DNA of 47,235 nt from Alphaproteobacteria bacterium (GTDB lineage: Bacteria; Pseudomonadota; Alphaproteobacteria; JAJTHO01; CANGXP01). Under the pieces are notes generated by a model. The model worked only from the letters and a program-made list of their open reading frames with translations. It made no database searches and had not been told where the DNA came from. The stretch is from NCBI GenBank assembly GCA_947457935.1, contig CANGXP010000009.1, positions 1 through 47,235 on the forward strand. Reading direction: 5' to 3'. Positions 7,506-46,406 of the stretch are shown here, one piece after another; within the stretch, counting starts at the first letter, position 1; every line of letters begins with the position of its first letter. The position numbers were made by a program, and so were the translations under genes.

Positions 7506-7532
7506 TGATTGGAGACCTGTAGAATTTAAGCG

Positions 7533-7663
7533 AAATTATTAAAGTAAGCCGTGTGTGTCATTCCCGTGCAGACGGGAATCCACTCTTAACCTTAAAATGT
7601 GGATCCCCTTTTTCAAGGGGATGACACGCAGAGCAATCATTAGCGTAATTTCTTACATAATTT
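7533..7663. repeat. Palindromic repeat, family B copy 2
   Basis: Core TGTGTCATTCCCGTGCAGAC-GGGAATCCACTCTTA starts at about 7553; TGTGGATCCCC, then GGGGATGACACGCAG, closes it at about 7632. Outer AT-rich arms (AAATTATTAAAGTAA on the left, TTACATAATTT on the right) pair imperfectly. It lies between pgk and glnD on the same strand. Confidence 0.8.
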
Positions 7664-10354: not shown

Positions 10355-10432
10355 AAGGGAGGGGAGTTTTTCCTAAATTCTTAACGTATAGACACTAATG
10401 CCTTTCGCGAAAAGTTTAAAGCTATGTTGTTC

Positions 10433-10530
10433 GTGTCATTCCCGTGAAAACGGGAATCCACTCTTACACTAATCAAAGAGTGGATCCCCTCTGGAGTTTA
10501 CGCTCACGAAAGTGGGCGAGGGGATGACGC
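10433..10530. repeat. Palindromic repeat, family B copy 3
   Basis: GTGTCATTCCCGTGAAAACG-GGAATCCACTCTTA is followed by AGAGTGGATCCCCT, an inner block CTGGAGTTTACGCTCACGAA, and a closing GGGGATGACGC. The inner CTGGAGTTTAC block is shared with copy 4 and with the family C repeat at 30.6 kb. It lies between divergent glnD and dnaQ. Confidence 0.85.
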
Positions 10531-10587
10531 ACTGTGCTAGCACTTCACGGAAATCACATATAAAATTCTATAGGAACACTGCCAAAA

Positions 10588-11289: not shown

Positions 11290-11330
11290 TAAATTTAAGA
11301 TTTAGGCGGAACGCCAAAACTGTGCCGTGT

Positions 11331-11444
11331 GTGTCATTCCCGTCCCCACTTTCGTGAGGATAAATTCCAACGGGAATCCACTCTTTTAAAAGACTTGTGG
11401 ATCCCCTCTGGAGTTTACCCTCGCGAAGGCGGGGGATGGGATGA
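11331..11444. repeat. Palindromic repeat, family B copy 4
   Basis: The core GTGTCATTCCCGT is interrupted by a short insertion (CCCCACTTTCGTGAGGATAA) before CGGGAATCCACTCTT. TGTGGATCCCCT, the CTGGAGTTTACCCTCGCGAA block and a degenerate GGGATGGGATGAA end follow. The interruption is an unusual variant. It lies between the convergent ends of dnaQ and the membrane protein at 11479. Confidence 0.8.
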
Positions 11445-14950: not shown

Positions 14951-16171
14951 ATGTCCCTCCTTGTTCACACTTTTGGTTGTCGTCTTAACAGCGCAGAATC
15001 ACAAACAATCAAAAACGTAGCAGAGAATGCGCGTGTTGAAAATACAATCGTGTTCAATACCTGCGCGGTGACAACTGAGGCGGAACGCCAAGCACGCCAA
15101 GCTATTCGCCGCGCACGACGCGAAAATCCGAACGCTAAAATTATTGTGACGGGCTGTGCCGCGCAAATTTCCCCTGAAAAATATGCCGCAATGGCAGAGG
15201 TTGACCGCGTTTTAGGCAATGTGGAGAAGCTGCAACAAGCAAGCTATGAAGACGTTGCCACCGTTAAAGTGAATGACATTATGAGCATCACCGAAACGGC
15301 GGCGCATTTGGTGACGGAATTTCAAGGGCACGCTCGGGCTTTTGTGGAGATTCAACAGGGGTGTGACCATCGCTGCACGTTTTGCATTATCCCGTTTGGG
15401 CGAGGCAACAGCCGCAGTGTGCCGCTCCAGCAAGTGATGACGCAAATTCAAGTATTAGTAGAAAATGGCTATAATGAGGTGGTGCTGACGGGGGTTGATA
15501 TCACGTCCTATAAAACAGCGGAAGCGGAGACATTGGGCGCACTCTGCCAAGCTATTTTGCGGGAGGTGCCAGACTTGCCACGCTTGCGGTTATCTTCCGT
15601 TGATGTTGAAGAAATTGATGTGGATATTCTCGCGCTGTTAGAAAAAAACAGTAGGTTTATGCCGCACTTACACTTAAGTCTTCAAGCAGGAGATGATTTA
15701 ATTTTAAAGCGCATGAAGCGGCGGCATTCCCGCACCCAAGCGATTGAATTTTGCAAAACGGCGCGGTCGTTGCGCCCTGATATTGTGTTTGGCGCGGATT
15801 TTATCACAGGCTTTCCCACCGAAACAGAAGAGATGTTTCAAAACACCTTGCGTTTGGTGGAAGAATGCGGGTTGACGTATTTGCATGTTTTTCCCTATTC
15901 AGAGCGGGAAGGCACGCCCGCTGCCAAGATGCCGAGTGTTGCAAAGCCACTACGCAAAGAACGAGCGGCACGCTTGCGCGATTTGGGCAAGCAACAAGAG
16001 GATATTTTTTTCAGCAAGAGCATTAATAAAAATGCGCAAGTTATTGTTGAGCAAGGTAATATTGGCAGGTCAGAGCATTTTATACCTGTCTATTTAACGG
16101 CAGATTTTCCGCAGGGGTCAGTGCAGACCGTGCAGATTAAGGGGTATGAAGCAGGAAGGGTGTTTGCGTGA
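14951..16171 (+). CDS. mtaB: tRNA t6A37 methylthiotransferase MtaB
   Basis: 406 residues. The N-terminal UPF0004 domain holds one iron-sulfur cluster through Cys10 (HTFGCRLN), Cys38 (NTCAVT) and Cys69 (VTGCAAQ). The radical SAM domain has Cys138, Cys142 and Cys145 in GCDHRCTFCIIPFGRG. FGCRLNSAES separates MtaB from MiaB and RimO. It adds a methylthio group to t6A37 of tRNAs reading ANN codons; Sua5, which helps make t6A, is at 19.9 kb. Its TGA stop shares its last base with the palindromic repeat that separates it from ftsY. Confidence 0.94.
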   Translation: MSLLVHTFGCRLNSAESQTIKNVAENARVENTIVFNTCAVTTEAERQARQAIRRARRENPNAKIIVTGCAAQISPEKYAAMAEVDRVLGNVEKLQQASYEDVATVKVNDIMSITETAAHLVTEFQGHARAFVEIQQGCDHRCTFCIIPFGRGNSRSVPLQQVMTQIQVLVENGYNEVVLTGVDITSYKTAEAETLGALCQAILREVPDLPRLRLSSVDVEEIDVDILALLEKNSRFMPHLHLSLQAGDDLILKRMKRRHSRTQAIEFCKTARSLRPDIVFGADFITGFPTETEEMFQNTLRLVEECGLTYLHVFPYSEREGTPAAKMPSVAKPLRKERAARLRDLGKQQEDIFFSKSINKNAQVIVEQGNIGRSEHFIPVYLTADFPQGSVQTVQIKGYEAGRVFA

Positions 16172-16297
16172 TACCATCATCATTAACTTCCCGAAATTTA
16201 GCTGCGCCACGCCATTGGCTTCAGTCATTGGCTTTAGCCAACTCCGTTCAGCCTCGGCTCGCTCGCAAAAATTTCAGAAACTTTCTGGTGACGGTAT
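16171..16297. repeat. Palindromic repeat, family A copy 1, between mtaB stop and ftsY start
   Basis: Left end ATACCATCATCATTAA and right end (reverse complement) ATACCGTCACCAGAAA form the arms. The core contains TTTAGCTGCGCCACGCCA and AACTCCGTTCAGCCTCGGCT-CGCTCGCAAAAA. The first base is the last base of the mtaB TGA, and the last two bases are the first two of the ftsY ATG. The region is open in the ftsY frame, so automated calls may wrongly extend ftsY into it. Confidence 0.88.
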
Positions 16298-17219
16298 GAG
16301 CTGGCTCACAAAACTAAAGCAAGGGTTGCAAAAGTCGTCCTCTAAACTCTCAGAAGGGTTGGTGGGGATTTTCACCAAGCGCAAGCTGGATGATGCAGCG
16401 CTTGAAGAACTGGAAGACACGTTGTTACTGGCGGATTTTGGGTCGGCAACAGCGGCGAATCTCACGAAAGAATTGGCGCGGGTGCGGTTTGGCAAGGAAG
16501 TATCGCCTGAAGAGGTGAAAGAATTTTTAGCCGAGCACATCACCCCAATTCTTGAACCCCTCGTATTGCCATTAAACATTAACAAAGCCAAACAACCCCA
16601 TGTTATTTTGATGATTGGCGTGAATGGTAGCGGTAAAACCACCACCATCGGCAAGCTGGCGGCACAATTCAAAGAACAGGGAAAATCGGTGTTGCTGGTG
16701 GCGGGTGACACATTCCGTGCCGCTGCCGTGGAACAGTTGAAAATCTGGGGCACACGGGCGAACGTGCCTGTGCTTGCAAGAGAAACGGGCAGTGATGCGG
16801 CGGCTCTTGTGTTTGATGCACTTGAGCAAGCCAAGCGCGACAACATTGACGTGGTGTTGATGGACACGGCAGGACGCTTGCAGAATAAAGATAATCTGAT
16901 GGCAGAACTCAGCAAAATCAGGCGTGTATTGCAAAAGGCGGATGCCACCGCGCCGCATGATGTGGTGCTGGTGTTGGATGCCACAACTGGGCAGGCAGCG
17001 ATCAATCAGGTGGAGGTGTTTGGCAAGGCAGCGGGGGTTACGGGGCTGATTGTCACGAAATTAGACGGCACGGCGCGGGGCGGCATTGTGGTAGCACTCG
17101 CGCAAAAGTTTGGGCTGCCGATTCATGCCCTCGGTGTGGGTGAGCAGATTGATGACCTGAAACCGTTTCTGGCGGCGGATTTTGCGCGGCATTTGGTGGG
17201 CGTGGCGGCGGATGCTTAA
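16296..17219 (+). CDS. ftsY: FtsY, signal recognition particle receptor GTPase
   Basis: 307 residues from the ATG giving MSWLTKLKQGLQKSSSKLSE. The helical N domain covers about 1-90. The G domain has the P-loop GVNGSGKTT (108-116), DTFRAAAVEQL, DTAGRLQNKDNLMAEL and TKLDGTARGG, ending GVGEQIDDLKPF. It docks SRP-ribosome complexes at the inner membrane. The frame stays open 50 codons upstream, but that part translates the family A repeat and is not typical FtsY, so I chose the internal ATG. The acidic A domain is short. The ribosome-binding site is weak (GGTGACGGT just before the ATG). Confidence 0.94.
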   Translation: MSWLTKLKQGLQKSSSKLSEGLVGIFTKRKLDDAALEELEDTLLLADFGSATAANLTKELARVRFGKEVSPEEVKEFLAEHITPILEPLVLPLNINKAKQPHVILMIGVNGSGKTTTIGKLAAQFKEQGKSVLLVAGDTFRAAAVEQLKIWGTRANVPVLARETGSDAAALVFDALEQAKRDNIDVVLMDTAGRLQNKDNLMAELSKIRRVLQKADATAPHDVVLVLDATTGQAAINQVEVFGKAAGVTGLIVTKLDGTARGGIVVALAQKFGLPIHALGVGEQIDDLKPFLAADFARHLVGVAADA

Positions 17220-17439
17220 TACCGACTACACTAAACACCCGCAGTTTAGCTGCGCCACGCCATCCAGTTTGCCTAAACTTTCCGCCGTGCCCTTCGGGCT
17301 TGCAGAAAGCAAGGCTTCACTGGCTTGCGGGTCAAAAAGCATTTGCTTTTTGTCTCCTCGCTCAGTCATTGGCATTGAGCCAACTCCGTTCAGCCTCGGC
17401 TCGCTCGCAAAAACTTCGGATGCTTATTGTGGTCGGTAT
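17219..17439. repeat. Palindromic repeat, family A copy 2, between ftsY stop and a glycosyltransferase start
   Basis: Ends ATACCGACTACA and (reverse complement) ATACCGACCACA match at 11 of 12 positions. The core carries TTTAGCTGCGCCACGCCA and AACTCCGTTCAGCCTCGGCT as in copy 1, plus about 90 bp of extra sequence (TTTCCGCCGTGCCCTTCGGG and following). The first A completes the ftsY TAA stop. The terminal GGTAT provides the first two bases of the next gene's ATG. Confidence 0.88.
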
Positions 17440-18712
17440 GTATAACATCCTGCAAGTATTACCTTCCCTAAACCTTGGCGGAGTGGAGCGCGGCACGCTG
17501 CAAATCGCGGCTTTCCTTGCTGCACGGGGCGATGGCGCGTTTGTTGCCTCAAATGGTGGCAGATTAGTGGCAGAATTAGAGCAGAGCGGTGCAACGCATC
17601 TGACGCTGCCCTTAAAGGGCAAAAATCCTGTTATAATTTATAATAATATCAGTGCGCTAGAAAAAATTATTAAACAATACTCTATTGATATTGTCCATGC
17701 GCGGAGTCGTGCGCCTGCATGGAGTGCCTATTTTGCCGCAAAACGGGCAAATGTGCCGTTTATCACCACTTATCACGGGGCGTACGGGCAGGGGGCATCT
17801 CTAAAAACCTCTTTTCTAGGGCGATTGGCCGCGTCAGCAGGTTGCTCTGAATCCGCACGTACGGAAGAGTACGCTTGCGTTTCAGCTCAACCTCCTTTCT
17901 CGCCACTCATCCCGATAAAAGGGTTTTTAGAAGTGCCCCAAGGCAACGCGCTGAAACGCTGGTATAACAGCATTATGACACGGGGCGCGGTGGTGATTGC
18001 GCCGTCGCACTTCATCAAACAGTATATTTTGCAGCATCACCCACACGTAAACCCCGATAAAATCCACGTTATTTATCGCGGCGCAGATGTCACACAGTTT
18101 GACCCCGCAACGGTTTCACCTGAAGATATTTCCGCTTTGAAAGCCTCATGGAACATAGCGGAGGGGCAGAAAATTCTGCTGTTTCCCGCACGGATCAGCC
18201 GTTGGAAGGGGCATAAGGAGGCGATTACGGCACTCAAGAATGTGTCAAACAGCGTGTTGGTCTTCCTTGGCGAGACAACAGGGCAGGAGTCTTACCAACA
18301 AGAACTGCTGGACTATGCAAAATCGCTACACTGTGCAGAAAACATCCGCTTTGTCGGGCGGTGTGATGTCATGCCAGCCGCCTATAGTGCTGCAGATGTG
18401 GTGCTATGTCCCTCTTTAAAGCCTGAAGCGTTCGGACGCACGGTGACAGAGGCGCAAGCTATGGGCGCGGTGGTGATTGCCACTAATCATGGCGGGGCAG
18501 CAGAAACCATTGAGGATGGCGTGACAGGTTTTCATATTCCGCTGGAAAACATGGAAAATGCGCTTGCTGCTAAAATTCAGGAGATTTTAGCAATGTCCCC
18601 TGAACAGCTTGTGACACTGAAGAATACTGCTATAGAAAGGGTGCGGGCGCAATTTTCCCTCGCACAGATGACGGCACAAACGGGGCTTCTCTATGACAGT
18701 TTTCAACGATAA
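17438..18712 (+). CDS. Group 1 (GT4-type) glycosyltransferase with an in-frame palindromic insertion
   Basis: 424 residues from MYNILQVLPSLNLGGVERGT, the usual GT4 start. The donor-binding half has LLFPARISRWKGHKEAI, FVGRCDVMPAAYSAADVVLCPSLKPEAFGR and EAQAMGAVVIATNHGG with the conserved Glu residues. Residues about 121-165 (between YHGAYG and LKRWYN, normally nearly adjacent) are encoded by an inverted repeat kept in frame. The upstream 46 open codons belong to the family A repeat, so the internal ATG is preferred; ATG at 17420 is an alternative. It overlaps lspA by 20 bp. A role in surface polysaccharide synthesis is inferred. Confidence 0.85.
   Translation: MYNILQVLPSLNLGGVERGTLQIAAFLAARGDGAFVASNGGRLVAELEQSGATHLTLPLKGKNPVIIYNNISALEKIIKQYSIDIVHARSRAPAWSAYFAAKRANVPFITTYHGAYGQGASLKTSFLGRLAASAGCSESARTEEYACVSAQPPFSPLIPIKGFLEVPQGNALKRWYNSIMTRGAVVIAPSHFIKQYILQHHPHVNPDKIHVIYRGADVTQFDPATVSPEDISALKASWNIAEGQKILLFPARISRWKGHKEAITALKNVSNSVLVFLGETTGQESYQQELLDYAKSLHCAENIRFVGRCDVMPAAYSAADVVLCPSLKPEAFGRTVTEAQAMGAVVIATNHGGAAETIEDGVTGFHIPLENMENALAAKIQEILAMSPEQLVTLKNTAIERVRAQFSLAQMTAQTGLLYDSFQR
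17800..17931. repeat. In-frame palindromic element inside the glycosyltransferase gene
   Basis: The left arm TCTAAAAACCTCTTTTCTAG (17800-17819) pairs with the right arm ATAAAAGGGTTTTTAGA (about 17915-17931): ten perfect pairs at the tip, then a one-base slip and further pairing. About 132 bp, 44 codons, with no stop in the gene's frame. Layout and size resemble the Rickettsia palindromic elements, which insert in frame into conserved proteins; sequence identity to those is not claimed. Confidence 0.75.
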
Positions 18713-33056: not shown

Positions 33057-34055
33057 ATGTCTTTATTGCACACACTTAAAAATTACGAACCTGATTTTTT
33101 TCAGAAAAATATTCGGAGTATACTAGAGCTAACGTCTTCATCTTCTTACCCTCCTTTGGCTTTAGTGCAAGGGCTTATTGATGGTCTAGAAAGCGAAAAA
33201 ACAAGACAACGTTTTGGTTTTGGAAGAAAAAAGCAGGGCTTGGTAAGTAAAAGGCAGTCAGGTAATTTATTAAATCTTTATGATAGGCAGTCTTTGGAGG
33301 TGATTTTATTTCATATCGCAATGGGGCATGCAGCAGCAGCAATAACTTTAACAGGGAGCGATAGAAACCCAGTACCAATTTTTGATATAGCAATCTTGAA
33401 GCTTTTTTTAGAACATCAACGCCCACAAGACACTGATAAAGCACTTGCCATGATTTACGGCACAACGGCGTACAGCGTGGTTGCATTAAGTGCTGTAGAT
33501 TCTCTGACTTCAGAAGAGCTAGAAACAATAAGACAGCGTTCTGCAAAAACTCTTGCCAAATCAAAAAGACCGGAATTCGCAGATGGCACCATAGAAGAAC
33601 AGCGAAAGAATGTAGAAATTGCCTTGCGACACAAAATACAAATGCTTTTATTTTTGACTGCCCAGATGTCTTCAGGAGAGTTAAAAAAGATTGCTGCGAA
33701 ATACATTCCGCGAATACAAGAAATAGCTTCATTACCATCTGACACAGATCTAAGCATGTATGCTAGAGATGGGGATGTTGCGAAAGGCGATGTTATAGAA
33801 TCTGTGGTAGGCGATCGAGTTGTAAGACATGTAGATCGGCGTACAGACTATCAACTACAAGCCTTCGATGTTTTTCCTAGTCGAAAAGGTGTGAAAACAA
33901 AGATTTCTCCTCAATTAGAACAAGGCGAGATAATTATTACCGAGAGCGACCTGCTAGGCAATGTATATGGCAATGCTGATCCTCTTGATTTGAGAAAGAT
34001 CCCTATGTTACAAACAGTCCTTAATGTTATTGGTGCTAGTGAACGTCGATGGTAA
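33057..34055 (+). CDS. Unknown protein, AT-rich orphan
   Basis: 332 residues starting MSLLHTLKNYEPDFFQKN. No family recognised; no signal peptide. One moderately hydrophobic stretch around residues 85-105 (VILFHIAMGHAAAAITL) is not clearly a membrane helix. It looks mainly helical, with a basic region GFGRKKQGLVSKRQ near 55-70. The gene is more AT-rich than the neighbouring metabolic genes, with an AT-rich promoter-like upstream region, which points to later acquisition. A GAGAA ribosome-binding site precedes the ATG. It converges on ruvX. Confidence 0.6.
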   Translation: MSLLHTLKNYEPDFFQKNIRSILELTSSSSYPPLALVQGLIDGLESEKTRQRFGFGRKKQGLVSKRQSGNLLNLYDRQSLEVILFHIAMGHAAAAITLTGSDRNPVPIFDIAILKLFLEHQRPQDTDKALAMIYGTTAYSVVALSAVDSLTSEELETIRQRSAKTLAKSKRPEFADGTIEEQRKNVEIALRHKIQMLLFLTAQMSSGELKKIAAKYIPRIQEIASLPSDTDLSMYARDGDVAKGDVIESVVGDRVVRHVDRRTDYQLQAFDVFPSRKGVKTKISPQLEQGEIIITESDLLGNVYGNADPLDLRKIPMLQTVLNVIGASERRW

Positions 34056-34609: not shown

Positions 34610-34897
34610 ATGTCCATCGATACCACCACTGTAAAGAAAATTGCGCGGCTTGCCCGTCTTGATATTGAAGAGGCACGCGCCGAAGCCATGAGTGCCGAGT
34701 TGTCCACCATCATGGGCTTTGTCGAGCAACTCCAAGCGGTCGATGTAACGGGCGTTGAGCCACTGTTAAGCGTTAGTCAAGCAACCTTGCCGCGCCGTGC
34801 CGATGTGGTGACAGATGGTAACTATGTGGATGCAATTTTAAAGAACGCACCAGACAAAAAACAAGGCTTTTTTGTTGTGCCGAAAGTGGTGGGATAG
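34610..34897 (+). CDS. gatC: Asp/Glu-tRNA amidotransferase subunit C
   Basis: 95 residues, standard for Gat[16 protein letters not shown] and [23 protein letters not shown] are the family motifs, and the C-terminus reads [16 protein letters not shown]. It wraps around GatA and GatB in the complex that converts Glu-tRNA(Gln) or Asp-tRNA(Asn) to the amide forms. It ends 10 bp before the chosen gatA start. Confidence 0.95.
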
Positions 34898-34907
34898 GAC
34901 GCTGATT

Positions 34908-36353
34908 ATGACTAATTTAACAACCCTCACCCTCACCGAAGCCGCAGCAGGCATCGCTACCAAAAAATTCTCTAGTGTGGAGATAACACAGGCGCATCTT
35001 GATGCGATTGAACAGCATAATCCTGCCCTTAATGCCTACATCACGGTTGCAGCAGAGCAGGCACTTTCTGCTGCCGCTGAGGCAGATAAAACCTCAAGCG
35101 AGGGACGCTTGCTGCACGGCTTGCCACTCGGCATTAAAGACCTGTTCTGCACCAAAGACATCCGCACCACGGCTGCCTCAAAAATCTTAGAAAACTACGT
35201 GCCCCAATACGAATCAACCGTCACGCAAAACCTGTTGAACCACGGGGCGATTTTCCTTGGCAAACTCAATCTCGATGAATTTGCGATGGGGTCGGCGAAT
35301 ATCACGAGTGCTTACGGCGTGGTGAAAAGCCCCCTTAAAGCAACAGGCGATACAGAACTCTGCCGCGTTCCGGGTGGTTCTTCGGGCGGCTCTGCTGCGG
35401 CACTTGCCGCTAACCTTTGCCTTGCTGCCACAGGCACAGACACAGGCGGTTCTATCCGTCAACCCGCTGCGTTTTGTGGTATTGTGGGGATTAAGCCCAC
35501 ATATGGGCGGTGCTCGCGGTGGGGGATTGTCGCGTTTGCGTCTTCGCTTGACCAAGCAGGACCCATGACGAAAACGGTAGCAGACGCGGCGTTAATGCTA
35601 GAAGCCATGGCAGGGTTTGATGCGAAGGATTCCACCTCTGCCCGTCATGCTGTGCCCAATTTCCGCGCCGCTGTGGGGCAAAGCGTGAAGGGCTTAAAAA
35701 TTGGCATTCCGAAAGAGTATCGCCCAGACGGACTCTCCCCTGAAATTGCCGCAACATGGGACAAAGGCATTCAACAACTCAAAGACGCAGGCGCGGAAAT
35801 CGTCAATATTTCTCTGCCGCATACACAATATGCCCTTGCCTGTTATTACATCATTGCCCCTGCGGAAGCCTCCAGCAATTTGGCGCGGTATGATGGCGTG
35901 CGCTATGGTGTGCGGGTGGATAACGGCGGCACGTTAGACGACATGTATTGCGCCACCCGCGCCCAAGGCTTCGGCGCAGAAGTGCAACGCCGCATTCTGA
36001 TTGGCACCTATGTTCTCTCCGCTGGATACTACGATGCGTATTACCTCCGCGCCCAAAAAGTTCGTGCGCTGATTGCGCGGGATTTTGCCGAGGCGTTCCA
36101 AAAAGTTGATGCGATTCTCACCCCCACCGCCCCCTCGGATGCCTTCAAATTGGGCGAAAAACAAGATGACCCCATCACCATGTATTTGAACGATGTGTTC
36201 ACCGTGCCTGCCAGCCTTGCAGGTGTTCCCGCTATGTCCGTCCCCGCAGGGTTATCGGCGCAAGGCTTGCCGCTGGGGCTACAAGTAATTGGCAGAATGT
36301 TTGACGAAGAAACCGTGCTGAAGGTTGGCGCGGTGTTGGAGGGGAAAATTTAG
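34908..36353 (+). CDS. gatA: Asp/Glu-tRNA amidotransferase subunit A
   Basis: 481 residues from ATG at 34908 ([15 protein letters not shown]). The Ser-cis-Ser-Lys triad is visible: Lys77 in [10 protein letters not shown], Ser158 in [13 protein letters not shown] and Ser182 in [15 protein letters not shown]. It releases ammonia from glutamine and passes it to GatB. An in-frame ATG at 34872 would overlap gatC and add atypical residues, so I rejected it. gatB does not follow directly; three unrelated small genes are inserted. Confidence 0.96.
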
Positions 36354-36444
36354 TAATTGTTAAGATCTTTGCCTTATTACTATTTACCGTACAGTGACTG
36401 AAAACGCCGCTTGTCTTTGGCGTTACAGATGTTAGGATGAGAGC

Positions 36445-37152
36445 ATGGAGATTAATAAAAACACAGATGCCGTCAGGAAAGTTGAACACCCTCCTATTAT
36501 CGAGGCAAGCGTTCTCATTGCAGTAGAAAAAGATTTTTCAGCAACGTATACGCAAACTCTCCAAGAGAAACTCTCTCCCCATTTTGTGATTGAAGAAAAT
36601 AATCCCCTCAAAAAAATATCCGATGGGTATATTATTGCTGTGTTTAATAATGCTCAAACACGGCAAGAAGTCATCCTTGCTAAGGACTATATCATTTATC
36701 GGGAAGGCAAACGATATAAAGACCTTCCAACGCTTGTAACTAATTTAAAAGCACTATGGGATACAATAGGTTTTGGTGAGTATCTCAACGAGATTGAGAT
36801 GCTCAGATTTCGCGTTATCAACAAATTTACGATTCTCATTTCTGACTTAGGGCGGAACTTCACGTTTTATCCCGTCATTAGGGAGCGAGAGCCTCAAGAG
36901 TGTGTTTTTGGGTACTCTGCTATTGAGACGAGATTACGGTCTGAATTTCGTGCTGCCTACGCTGATGTTCGCGCACGAATCTTGCCTATAGAAGGAGAAA
37001 TTTTAGAAATAACCTTTGATATAGATACCTTTGTTGAAAAAGAAAAGTTTTTCGATTTTAATTCTGTAGAGCAATACTTAAAGCGATTGAGTGAACTCAA
37101 AAACGACATCTTTTTTGCAAATATTCCTGATGCACAGGAGCGTTTTAAATAA
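36445..37152 (+). CDS. TIGR04255-like protein, gene 1 of a three-gene module
   Basis: 235 residues. PPIIEASVLIAVEKDFS at the N-terminus and the C-terminal pattern EITFDIDTFVEKEK-x-FDFNSVEQYLKRLSELKNDIFFANIPD, together with RFRVINKFTI near the middle, resemble the sporadically distributed TIGR04255 proteins of unknown function. No membrane segment. It starts with an AGGATGAGAGC ribosome-binding region, 91 bp after gatA, and ends in TAATG, overlapping the next start by one base. Base composition is more AT-rich than gatA and gatB. Confidence 0.6.
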   Translation: MEINKNTDAVRKVEHPPIIEASVLIAVEKDFSATYTQTLQEKLSPHFVIEENNPLKKISDGYIIAVFNNAQTRQEVILAKDYIIYREGKRYKDLPTLVTNLKALWDTIGFGEYLNEIEMLRFRVINKFTILISDLGRNFTFYPVIREREPQECVFGYSAIETRLRSEFRAAYADVRARILPIEGEILEITFDIDTFVEKEKFFDFNSVEQYLKRLSELKNDIFFANIPDAQERFK

Positions 37153-37628
37153 TGTATAGTATCGCAACACAGGATTTTCTTGGAACTCCAATGTCTTCAC
37201 GTTGGGGAAGTACTCCAGATAATTTAGTCTTTAAGCGGGTTGAGACACCGCGCCAAACAAAAATTAATGTTCAGCAGTATGTATCAGCTCGTTATACAGA
37301 CCTCAAGAACAGCATAGAAGAAGTAATGCGTGAATGTGCTGAAGATGATTGGGATGAAGAAGGGAGTCTGGCTGTAAATAAAGACTCTGTTGAGTTTGCC
37401 CTGCAGTATTTTTCGACATTTATAGAGGGCTCGCTCCCTCATATCTCTTGCGACCCTTTCGGCTGTGTTATGGCAGAATGGTATGGCAACGCCGCGTTAG
37501 CTGCAATAGCGTTTCAGACCGACAAAGTTTATCATGTGCTCGGCTATAATAAAAAAATACGCCATTTTTCGAAGAAAACAGATGATTCCCGAATGGCGCA
37601 TAAGTTCATAGCAGAGTTAGGTTTCTAA
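37152..37628 (+). CDS. Unknown protein, gene 2 of the three-gene module
   Basis: 158 residues. No named family is assigned. The middle part has DDWDEEGSLAVNKDSVEFALQYF, then PHISCDPFGCVMAEWYGNAALAAIAF, a pattern I have seen in short proteins with a W-D-x-x-G-S motif and a DP-G-x-x-x-EW strand. It is likely soluble. Its start shares the A of the previous gene's TAA, and its own stop overlaps the next ATG the same way, which implies coupled translation and equal amounts of the three proteins. Confidence 0.55.
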   Translation: MYSIATQDFLGTPMSSRWGSTPDNLVFKRVETPRQTKINVQQYVSARYTDLKNSIEEVMRECAEDDWDEEGSLAVNKDSVEFALQYFSTFIEGSLPHISCDPFGCVMAEWYGNAALAAIAFQTDKVYHVLGYNKKIRHFSKKTDDSRMAHKFIAELGF

Positions 37629-38113
37629 TGCTTGCTGGTACTGGAAGTGCATTGCGTAAACTTTTACACCATGATGAGGGTGTTTGCGAGAGTAGCGAAA
37701 TTGTTATCAGGGCTATTGCCGATAATAGGACTTATTCATATAATCCCTTAACACTAAAAAACACAAGTGCATCGATAAAAAGTTTCATCCCTAGAAGAAA
37801 AGAAGGTATTTTTGAAAATGGGCTATCTGTTATTCATGAAGATAAAAGAGAAAAAAGCATAATCTCTGAAATTGCACGCGAAAAAATTAATCCGAAAACA
37901 GTCTTATTAGCTAAGGCAGATATTCAATCAATAGCTAATTTGCGACATGAAATTCCCGATGATATTTTTAGGCTTGATGTAATACGCGATGATGATGGAT
38001 TTGAAGGACATACATTGATACAACCGATGCCTAATGATGAAGCGCAATGCCGTGAAATTGGCATACAATTACGGCGTGTATTTAGTAAATATAATCAATT
38101 AGTAGAGATTTGA
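37628..38113 (+). CDS. Unknown protein, gene 3 of the three-gene module
   Basis: 161 residues, [21 protein letters not shown]... Not recognised. The features are soluble: an N-terminal basic stretch, [20 protein letters not shown], a central [20 protein letters not shown], and an end [26 protein letters not shown]. The start overlaps the stop of gene 2 by one base. It ends six bases before the gatB ATG, so gatB is likely expressed from read-through of this module or from gatC. Confidence 0.55.
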
Positions 38114-38118
38114 GTATT

Positions 38119-39582
38119 ATGACTACCCCCTACACAATCCAAGGCAAAACAGGCACATGGGAAATTGTGCTGGGCTTAGAAATCCACGCGCAAGTAACCT
38201 CCAACGCCAAACTTTTTTCAGGCTCTGATGCAACCTTCGGGGCAGACCCAAACACGCAAGTGTCGTTTGTGGATGCTGCCTTTCCAGGGATGCTCCCCGT
38301 CATCAACGAAAAATGCATTGAGCAAGCTGTGCGCACAGGGTTTGGGTTGAATGCGGAAATAAACCACTTTTCTATTTTTGACCGCAAGAATTATTTTTAT
38401 GCAGACTTGCCGCAGGGCTATCAAATCTCCCAATACAAGCAACCGATTGTGGGCGAGGGGGCTGTTACCATTGACCTCAGCGATGGGACAACCCGCACCA
38501 TTGGCATTGAACGCCTGCATCTTGAGCAAGACGCAGGCAAAAGCCTCCATGACCAACACCCCACCAAGAGCTTTGTAGACCTCAATCGTTCGGGCGTTGC
38601 GCTCATGGAAATTGTCTCGAAGCCCGATATGCGTACGCCTGAAGAAGCAGGGGCGTATGTGAAGAAAATCCGCGCCATTGTTCGCACGCTCGGCACCTGC
38701 GATGGCAACATGGAAGAAGGATCACTCCGCTGTGATGTCAACGTGTCGGTGCGCCGCACCAGCAACGACCCGTTCGGCACACGTTGTGAGATTAAAAACG
38801 TCAACTCCGTGCGTTTTGTGATGCAAGCGATTGAGTATGAAGCCCGCCGCCAAATTGAAGTGATAGAGGAGGGCGGCGTGATTCGCCAAGAAACGCGTTT
38901 GTTTGATTCGGCAAAAGGCGTGACGCGCTCCATGCGCGATAAGGAAGATGCCCACGATTACCGCTATTTTCCCGACCCTGATTTGCTGCCCTTAGTGCTG
39001 GATACCGCATGGGTGGAAAACATTAAGGCAAGCCTGCCCGAATTGCCCGATGCCAAGAAAAACCGTTTCAAAAATGACTATGGTCTTAATGAGTTTGAAG
39101 CCAATTTGCTGTCAGAAGAAAAAGAAAATGCCACGTTCTATGAGGCGGTGCTGAATGGCAAACGGAACCCTAAGTTGGTGGCAAGTTGGGTGGTAGGTGA
39201 GCTTTTCGCCAGCCTCAATAAAAATGGACAAAGCATTGAGAATTCCCCAATCGGCGCGGATGCCTTGGGCGAATTGATTGACCTTATCGAGGACAACACG
39301 CTGTCAGGACGGCTGGCGAAGGAAGTGTTCGCCGCGATGTTAGAAACAGGCAAAGCCGCCGCCGTGATTGTGGATGAGCAAGGCCTCCGCCAAGTGACAG
39401 ACACAGGCGCGATTGAGACCGCCATTGCCCAAGTGCTTGAGGAAAATCCTGATAAGGTGGCGGAATACCGTTCGGGTAAAGATAAGCTGTTTGGCTTTTT
39501 TGTTGGGCAGGTGATGAAACTCACAGGCGGCAAAGCTAACCCTGCGCTGGTGAATGAGGTTCTCAAGAATAAGCTAGGTTAG
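38119..39582 (+). CDS. gatB: Asp/Glu-tRNA amidotransferase subunit B
   Basis: 487 residues from ATG 38119. [56 protein letters not shown] and [17 protein letters not shown] are GatB signatures covering the catalytic core; a helical YqeY-like tail ends [18 protein letters not shown]. It phosphorylates the glutamyl or aspartyl residue on the tRNA and amidates it with ammonia from GatA. A TTG nine bases upstream could also start it. It completes the GatCAB set despite the interrupting module. Confidence 0.96.
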
Positions 39583-39588
39583 GTGGTT

Positions 39589-39716
39589 ATACCAACCCCA
39601 GAAAATTTCTGAAATTTTTGTGAGCGAATCGAGGCTGAACGGAGTTGGCTCAACGCCAATGACTGAAGCCGAAGATGTGGCGCAACAAAATTGCAGAGAT
39701 TTAATGGGGTTGGTAT
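39589..39716. repeat. Palindromic repeat, family A copy 3, at the end of gshA
   Basis: Ends ATACCAACCCCA on both sides are exact inverted copies; the pairing continues imperfectly for more than 30 bases (AAATTTCTGAAATTTTTGTG versus the complement of the right arm). The core contains AACGGAGTTGGCTCAACGCC and ATGTGGCGCAAC, the reverse complement of the core in copies 1 and 2. The gshA reading frame runs into its right end and stops there. Confidence 0.87.
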
Positions 39717-41110: not shown

Positions 41111-41539
41111 ATGAGAGTAGTGTTGGATACGGATGTTGTTGTTGCGGGGTTGCGGAGTCCAACAGGGGCTTCAGCAGAACTATTACGGCGTGTTTTAAAG
41201 GGTGAAATAACACCTCTTATCAGTGTCGCGTTGGCATTGGAATACGAAGCAATCTGCCAATTAGCAGAGCATCGTTTAGCATCGGGAGCTACAGCAGAAG
41301 ATATTACAAACCTGTTGGATGCGTTGATGGTAAAGGCGATTCCTGTGGATATTCACTATCAATGGCGACCGCAACTGAGAGACGCAGGGGATGAAATGGT
41401 TTTGGAAACGGCGGTTAATGGACAAGCAGAAGCAATCGTCACATTTAACCTGAAAGATTATGGCATTGCGCCAAGCCGTTTCGGAATTTCTGTTCTCACG
41501 CCTGCTGATATTTTACGAAAGGGACGAACCCATGACTAA
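41111..41539 (+). CDS. PIN-domain toxin, COG1569 type
   Basis: 142 residues. MRVVLDTDVVVAGLRSPTGAS carries the first acidic residue (Asp6) of the PIN fold; SVALALEYEAI provides the next, and DEMVLETAVNGQAEAIVTFNLKDY the last acidic residues. PIN toxins are metal-dependent ribonucleases. The antitoxin gene starts within its final codons (8 bp overlap). Toxin-first order is the less usual arrangement but common for COG1569. A palindromic operator immediately precedes its ATG. Confidence 0.85.
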   Translation: MRVVLDTDVVVAGLRSPTGASAELLRRVLKGEITPLISVALALEYEAICQLAEHRLASGATAEDITNLLDALMVKAIPVDIHYQWRPQLRDAGDEMVLETAVNGQAEAIVTFNLKDYGIAPSRFGISVLTPADILRKGRTHD

Positions 41540-41786
41540 ATCTGCAACGATGTCTTTACGTCTGCCGCTTTCTCTTAAAGCCGCTTTGGAAAAAATAGCG
41601 GCGGCTGATGGGAGCAGCATGAATCAGTTTTTGGTAATGGCGGCTGCCGAAAAACTCGCCTCCATCCAAACAGCCGAAAAATTTTTCGCGGAACGTCGCG
41701 CACGGGGCGATGTTGAGCAAGCACTGGCTTTTTTAAGTCGTAAAGGAGGAGAAGCACCGCGTGCAGGGGATGCGTTAGCGGAGTAA
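41532..41786 (+). CDS. Ribbon-helix-helix antitoxin
   Basis: 84 residues from MTKSATMSLRLPLSLKAALEK. The N-terminal SATMSLRLPLSLKAALEKIA is the beta-strand and first helix of a CopG/RHH DNA-binding domain, and DGSSMNQFLVMAAAEKLA the second helix. The tail AEKFFAERRARGDVEQA would bind the PIN toxin. Longer in-frame starts are rejected because they would overlap the toxin gene extensively. Confidence 0.82.
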   Translation: MTKSATMSLRLPLSLKAALEKIAAADGSSMNQFLVMAAAEKLASIQTAEKFFAERRARGDVEQALAFLSRKGGEAPRAGDALAE

Positions 41787-45812: not shown

Positions 45813-46406
45813 ATGCGACAGGCAATAATAAACCAGCTTGAATTGAACAGAGCAGAAGAAAAAATCAGCAAACAAAAAGCCAAGCAGTTTTTTGAGGGTG
45901 GGGCGATCAATCACGTGGAGGTTGGCACGTTTCAAGGGCTTGCACAGATTCATGCGTATTTATTTGGCGACATATACGAGTTTGCGGGAAAAATGCGGGA
46001 TGTGAATATTGCAAAAGGCACCTTCCGCTTTGCGCCCTTAATGTATCTCGAAAAATCTTTGGAAAATATTACCAACATGCCACACGGTAATTTTAACGAG
46101 ATTGTGGAAAAATATGTGGAGATGAATATCGCGCACCCTTTCCGCGAGGGGAATGGGCGTGCTACAAGGATATGGCTAGATTTAATTCTCAAAAAAGAAA
46201 TACGGCAGGTGATTGATTGGAACGCCGTTGATAAAGCAGAGTATTTTTCCGCCATGGAGCGCAGTGTGATTAAAGATATTGAAATCAAGCATCTTTTTCA
46301 CCAAGCGTTAACCAGCAAGATAGATGACCGCGCAACTTTTATGAAGGGTATTGATATAAGCTATTACTACGAAGGGTATAGTGAATTCAGGATTGAGGAT
46401 TTGTAG
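45813..46406 (+). CDS. Class III Fic-domain AMP-transferase with built-in inhibitory helix
   Basis: 197 residues. The active-site loop HPFREGNGRATR (108-119) has the catalytic His and the anion- and metal-binding residues. FQGLAQIHAYLFGDIYEFAGKMR and FRFAPLMYLEKSL form the helical core. The C-terminal helix SYYYEG (183-188) matches the [S/T]xxxE[G/N] inhibitory motif in the position seen in class III Fic proteins such as Neisseria NmFic, where oligomer state controls AMPylation of target and self. I infer the same control here. The gene appears to stand alone after the porin terminator. Confidence 0.9.
   Translation: MRQAIINQLELNRAEEKISKQKAKQFFEGGAINHVEVGTFQGLAQIHAYLFGDIYEFAGKMRDVNIAKGTFRFAPLMYLEKSLENITNMPHGNFNEIVEKYVEMNIAHPFREGNGRATRIWLDLILKKEIRQVIDWNAVDKAEYFSAMERSVIKDIEIKHLFHQALTSKIDDRATFMKGIDISYYYEGYSEFRIEDL

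Follow-up and report, generated by a model that had tools for sequence, protein, structure and literature searches.

Within the window – by which we mean the whole stretch of 47,235 nucleotides analysed here – three genes lie inside a gatCAB operon, all of them on the + strand. Upstream of the trio is gatC (34610-34897), followed by gatA (34908-36353), the host operon gene 5′ of the insertion. After a 91-nt spacer (36354-36444), the presumed site of a promoter, come gene 1 (36445-37152; 235 aa), a divergent TIGR04255-type protein; gene 2 (37152-37628; 158 aa), a WDG-domain protein; and gene 3 (37628-38113; 161 aa), of a family that we refer to as ‘HAxI’. The host operon resumes directly 3′ of the insertion with gatB (38119-39582). 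An earlier note on this DNA had described three genes joined by TAATG between gatA and gatB, and the coordinates and junction sequences confirm it: at both junctions (37150-37154 between genes 1 and 2, 37626-37630 between genes 2 and 3) stop and start codons overlap by 1 nt in the sequence TAATG. Gene 3 stops with TGA, and the ATG of gatB (38119) begins 5 nt later.

The trio was also said to be AT-rich. Its G+C content, 0.385, is the lowest of all 1,669-nt stretches in the window, as against 0.475 for the window as a whole, 0.544 for gatA and 0.514 for gatB; at third positions the values are 0.35, 0.38 and 0.22 for genes 1, 2 and 3, compared with 0.56 and 0.58 for gatA and gatB. Elsewhere in the window, just upstream of a ruvX-like gene, lies a further AT-rich gene (33057-34055, +; 332 aa; G+C 0.395, third-position 0.29), whose product matches nothing in Pfam and resembles FliH only weakly and in part; it may be a second piece of foreign DNA inserted close to the gat operon.

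That the gat order is normally contiguous is borne out by comparison with relatives. Of 12 other alphaproteobacterial genomes, 10 have gatA directly next to gatB, among them G001, from the same order as the window, and G005, from another alphaproteobacterial family, which has the trio at another place; in G002 and G003 gatA is absent within 1.5 kb upstream of gatB. Because gatA and gatB are uninterrupted in relatives, the trio is most simply explained as an insertion in the window's lineage, and the same contiguity rules out the alternative that the three are core genes of the lineage at the gat position. A search around the trio for insertion footprints – target duplications and flanking inverted repeats – gave none that was convincing, and the 91-nt spacer between gatA and gene 1 held no promoter candidate above chance. 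Given its position inside gatCAB, the trio is probably co-transcribed with gatB.

Several other features of the window deserve mention. A dispersed repeat (16171-16298, 17362-17440 and 39589-39716; 82-86% identical) has one inverted copy, which lies directly after gatB, and two of its copies form part of the 5′ ends of frames in the list; a second group (2437-2521, 7526-7609, 10402-10532 and 11329-11444) is about 76-81% identical. Inspection by eye points to a probable toxin-antitoxin pair, in which the gene for a PIN-domain protein (41111-41539, +) overlaps the next one, whose small product is ribbon-helix-helix-like (41460-41786, +), and to a Fic/DOC-family protein with the motif HPFREGNGRATR (45813-46406, +).

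The resemblance of gene 1 to TIGR04255 (NCBIfam sporadTIGR04255), which the earlier note had proposed, is weak and full-length: E=0.0025 and 17.7 bits, short of the curated cut-off of 30 bits. It is upheld by alignment with some 80 members of the family, in which P17, E20, Y91, R123, N126, D192, D194, K219, N220 and F223 are all kept, and other family residues are lost (W94L, R119M, P131L). Close relatives of gene 1 were found in none of the plasmids, phages or species-genome collection searched. On the gene 1 tree (84 sequences) the window's protein falls beside that of G005 within a group whose partners are of the window's kind (type A, below), on a branch so long that the position is unsure. 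The long branch and the lost residues speak for the view that the trio is chance cargo without function, or cargo in decay. Set against this, all three genes are intact, coupled reading frames, and at less than 31% identity to their relatives the trio's proteins keep the core residues of every gene; we regard such decay as highly improbable.

A model of gene 1 (AF2, 80 sequences; pLDDT 86, pTM 0.84) shows the succession beta-alpha-beta-beta-beta-alpha two times over, pointing to an internal duplication. A Foldseek search of the PDB placed YwmB first by probability (prob 0.92, TMq only 0.29), and matches in a viral library include TBP-type proteins of giant viruses. With caution, the predicted fold may be described as a TBP-like or helix-grip arrangement. 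Two other candidates were set aside: a triphosphate tunnel enzyme, an idea that came from alternating charged residues, was not among the top 50 PDB structure matches, and a SecB-like chaperone is unsupported, the protein being TIGR04255-type with a duplicated beta-alpha-beta3-alpha unit instead. A sequence search of solved structures with profiles of genes 1, 2 and 3 returned no significant match, and in the literature searched we found no mention of TIGR04255, which is named in NCBIfam.

Gene 2 carries the W-D-x-x-G-S / EW pattern reported earlier, in the form W67-D-E-E-G-S with a later E-W110, together with P96 and G104. Neither gene 2 nor gene 3 has a convincing family match in Pfam, NCBIfam, PADLOC or PHROGs. 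A profile of the gene 2 family, whose build included the window's own sequence, recovers window gene 2 with E 4.5e-19, and a comparison of profiles shows two sequence variants of the family to be homologous (E 4.5e-8). There is a link to PADLOC's phage-defence candidate PDC-M32A: weak for window gene 2 itself (0.0089), and better for the family, 18 of whose 37 members match it (best E 6.7e-8), the WDG domain aligning with the C-terminal part of the PDC-M32A profile (about positions 257-332 of 375).

On an Acetobacter persici plasmid (L172, 3896-5201) a protein with a doubled WDG domain, which matches the gene 2 profile with E 4.2e-20, is encoded by a gene that overlaps one for an SspB-type ClpXP adaptor, the product of which matches solved SspB (E 1.9e-5). 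This arrangement would suit a module for protein turnover, in which WDG proteins work with ClpXP adaptors, gene 1 is a chaperone that handles substrates and gene 3 modifies the client; but the association was seen at a single locus, and the trios are without SspB, so that we consider it quite improbable that turnover is the trio's business.

The earlier note called gene 3 unrecognised. This holds in so far as no named family matches it, and no longer holds in that gene 3 now belongs to a family (31 sequences) with an invariant S67 and near-invariant R28 and H128, all three of which are present in the window's protein, and with a tentative fold. A family representative of 134 aa, modelled from 29 sequences, is predicted to be compact (pLDDT 94.1). 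Its best Foldseek match in the PDB is KptA with 2′,3′,5′-phosphoadenosine (pA) (prob 0.96, E 0.12, TMq 0.46); other ADP-ribosyltransferase folds, AvrPphF ORF2 and NarE, rank lower and match more weakly. From the model we tentatively assign gene 3 an ADP-ribosyltransferase/KptA-like fold. A catalytic H-Y-E or R-S-E triad is absent from the family, in which an invariant Glu was not found, and the KptA residues are not evident in gene 3. Kinship in sequence with KptA/Tpt1 (PF01885) was tried and rejected: there is no Pfam match, and hhalign gives a probability of 0.1%.

The match to KptA with a phosphorylated adenosine raises the question of whether the trio is a non-toxic complex for RNA processing, or for RNA repair under stress. 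Gene 3 would then be a KptA-like 2′-phosphotransferase, or an RNA ADP-ribosyltransferase, acting on damaged RNA; gene 1 would bind nucleic acid through TBP-like sheets, for which its two beta-alpha-beta3-alpha repeats and the structural matches to YwmB and viral TBP-type proteins provide some grounds; and gene 2 would be an adaptor. That ordinary genes flank most loci of the window's type also sits well with such a role. A sporadic distribution on prophages and plasmids and a readiness to swap partners are, however, unlike repair enzymes, and gene 3 lacks sequence kinship to KptA. On balance we think this account unlikely.

A central question is whether the three genes travel together. A search of 59 relatives found a match for each of them in one other genome, that of G005, where the three homologs are neighbours, their order is kept and their stop and start codons overlap. 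Across 385 alphaproteobacterial genomes TIGR04255 proper occurs in 19, against 0 of 14 control genomes, in keeping with the sporadic distribution claimed for the family; its modules span Proteobacteria, Nitrospirota, Planctomycetota, Cyanobacteria, Omnitrophota and others. Downstream of the TIGR04255 genes in these genomes there is often a gene with W-D-G and a later W, and then one of about 150 aa with H-x-x-I. Run over these 385 genomes, the gene 2 profile has 14 matches, all with a gene-1-type neighbour. In 12 cases this neighbour is a TIGR04255 gene over the cut-off; the other two are in the window's genome and in G107 (L008), which looks by eye like a trio but has a first gene that failed the TIGR04255 search and was recognised by position and length alone. 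The gene 3 profile has 11 matches, nine of them beside gene 1. The trio thus recurs as a unit, as had been predicted, in G005 and in many other genomes, with order and coupling kept. We call a trio of gene 1, WDG gene 2 and HAxI gene 3, coupled and in this order, a type A module.

The other two gene 3 matches fall outside this definition. In G003, of the window's order, a gene 3-like frame stands at the start of a contig, away from gatB (L144, 165-590). In G312 (L145, 1498-2893, -) homologs of type A gene 2 and gene 3 (E 1.3e-5 and 1.3e-9) follow a first gene of another kind (134 aa), and the gene 2/3 pair can therefore have another core partner.

The converse, one core with several partners, emerged when 85,000 species genomes, together with viral contigs, were scanned; 90 loci were obtained. 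Behind gene 1 there are at least three kinds of two-gene cassette, with spacings mostly of -4 or -1. Type A, as in the window, accounts for 36 of the 90, most with gene 3 next; type B, an HPAYQ gene followed by one for DUF7689 (Pfam PF24738), for 32; and type C, a small gene of about 100 aa with an ‘SQTCD’ gene, for 11, while at the remaining 11 loci the cassette is unassigned or cut off. Partner type is strongly clustered on the 84-sequence gene 1 tree (8 changes, compared with 32 in shuffles), on which there are also apparent exchanges of partner – L044 (type A) beside L066 (type B), for example – on branches that are not strongly supported. What stays the same in this widespread operon family is gene 1; the pair formed by genes 2 and 3 is one of three or more that can replace each other behind it. 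A three-gene system that swaps partners in this way is apparently undescribed: we found no description of one in the literature searched.

Two plasmid loci stand apart. On a Crinalium plasmid (L010) gene 1 matches, but the next two genes score only E 0.08 and 2.1 against the gene 2 and gene 3 profiles, and we do not count this trio as type A. On a 12-kb Vibrio plasmid (L173, 158-2105) the TIGR04255 gene has behind it a hypothetical gene, overlapped by the gene of an annotated zeta toxin; this pair is a possible fourth cassette, though one that lies 107 nt from the TIGR04255 gene and could be independent of it.

Evidence that the unit is horizontally mobile, as had been suspected, comes from copies on prophage and plasmid contigs and from the lineage-specific insertion into gat. 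Terminases, portal and head proteins, an integrase and endolysins flank the loci on viral contigs, from which it follows that the module rides on prophages. The best explanation of the trio is that it is a type A TIGR04255 module, a translationally coupled operon that has moved horizontally.

The earlier note had wondered about defence, and here the neighbourhood is equivocal. The core gene on the Crinalium plasmid is near type I restriction genes, and one on a Thermus plasmid is near genes for Argonaute, Cas6 and VapC. Yet most type A loci are surrounded by ordinary genes: in 147 neighbours of 17 such loci, the PADLOC matches listed were mainly type I specificity subunits, in 2 proteins, and the Pfam matches listed include 4 integrases. 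Two type I S subunits in 147 neighbours, among the matches listed, amount to no clear enrichment for defence islands at type A loci. A role in defence is nevertheless suggested by carriage on prophages, by the occurrence of the gene 2 domain in PDC-M32A, and by those neighbours that are restriction-modification, CRISPR or toxin genes.

Were the trio defensive, it might act on phage directly: gene 1 would recognise a phage molecule, and genes 2 and 3 would modify or block it, with no antitoxin step. A constant core with variable effectors, prophage carriage and the domain shared with PDC-M32A are all compatible with this; no nuclease or nucleotide-signalling domain was found in the trio, which counts against it, and we rate direct action as rather unlikely.

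The reading that we favour, and hold only tentatively, is that the trio is a type A module acting as a defence complex similar to toxin-antitoxin-chaperone (TAC) systems. We infer that the three products form one complex, perhaps in the fixed proportions that the earlier note proposed. Gene 1 would supply its constant, sensor- or chaperone-like subunit; gene 2 would be an antitoxin or adaptor that keeps the effector silent; and gene 3 the effector, probably an NAD+-using ADP-ribosyltransferase or a 2′-phosphotransferase-like enzyme, with RNA or protein as its target. When gene 1 sensed an infection or some other stress, the complex would be upset, gene 3 would be released and growth would stop. 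A plan of sensor, antitoxin and toxin fits because gene 1 is constant, genes 2 and 3 can be swapped, gene 3 is predicted to be compact and has conserved residues, the module is carried on prophages, and in one case a possible partner pair includes a zeta toxin. One core with several effectors is a plan typical of immune and toxin systems. Whether this can be extended to all TIGR04255 modules – as an undescribed class of bacterial immunity spread over many phyla, phages and plasmids, with a shared sensor of TBP-like fold and interchangeable effector pairs (ADP-ribosyltransferase-like, DUF7689, SQTCD) – is more doubtful.

Whatever the function, a family that had only a number to its name supplies the unchanging part of a modular system of three genes, in which the partners are swapped as pairs. 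The modules constitute a directly testable set of candidates, among them a possible enzyme of ADP-ribosyltransferase fold with an unusual R-S-H signature. If they are a defence system, a new sensor fold is added; if they are not, they still represent an uncharacterised and widespread complex.

It remains to place the trio among known systems. With the TIGR04255 family gene 1 shares a full-length alignment, conserved residues and a sporadic distribution, and it differs in scoring below the family's cut-off. KptA/Tpt1 is the best structural match of the gene 3 family; the two are unlike in that HMM-HMM comparison finds no kinship, in length (134 aa for the gene 3 representative, about 180 for KptA) and in their conserved residues, which are R, S and H in gene 3. 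The conserved tetrad of KptA is R-H-R-R. DUF7689, which takes the gene 3 position in type B modules, with the same core ahead of it, is absent from the window and unrelated to the window's gene 3. PDC-M32, a phage-defence candidate of PADLOC with components A and B, has been reported in a Sinorhizobium prophage (PMC12429752). Its A component and gene 2 have the WDG domain in common, but gene 2 of the window (158 aa) has the domain only and matches some 70 positions near the C-terminus of the PDC-M32A profile; neither gene 1 nor gene 3 matches PDC-M32B, the partners of gene 2 being TIGR04255 and HAxI genes, and no PDC-M32A gene was found among 140 alphaproteobacterial genomes. There are parallels in organisation with CmdTAC, in which the toxin is an ADP-ribosyltransferase and the chaperone senses a capsid protein (PMC11618068). 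Like such TAC systems, the trio comprises three coupled genes, includes a putative effector whose fold may be that of an ADP-ribosyltransferase, and combines a constant partner with variable pairs resembling toxin and antitoxin; unlike them, it has a core of TIGR04255 type and not a SecB-like one, and its gene 3 is without the H-Y-E triad. Missing these features, the trio is not a member of the CmdTAC family, but it may still work like one.
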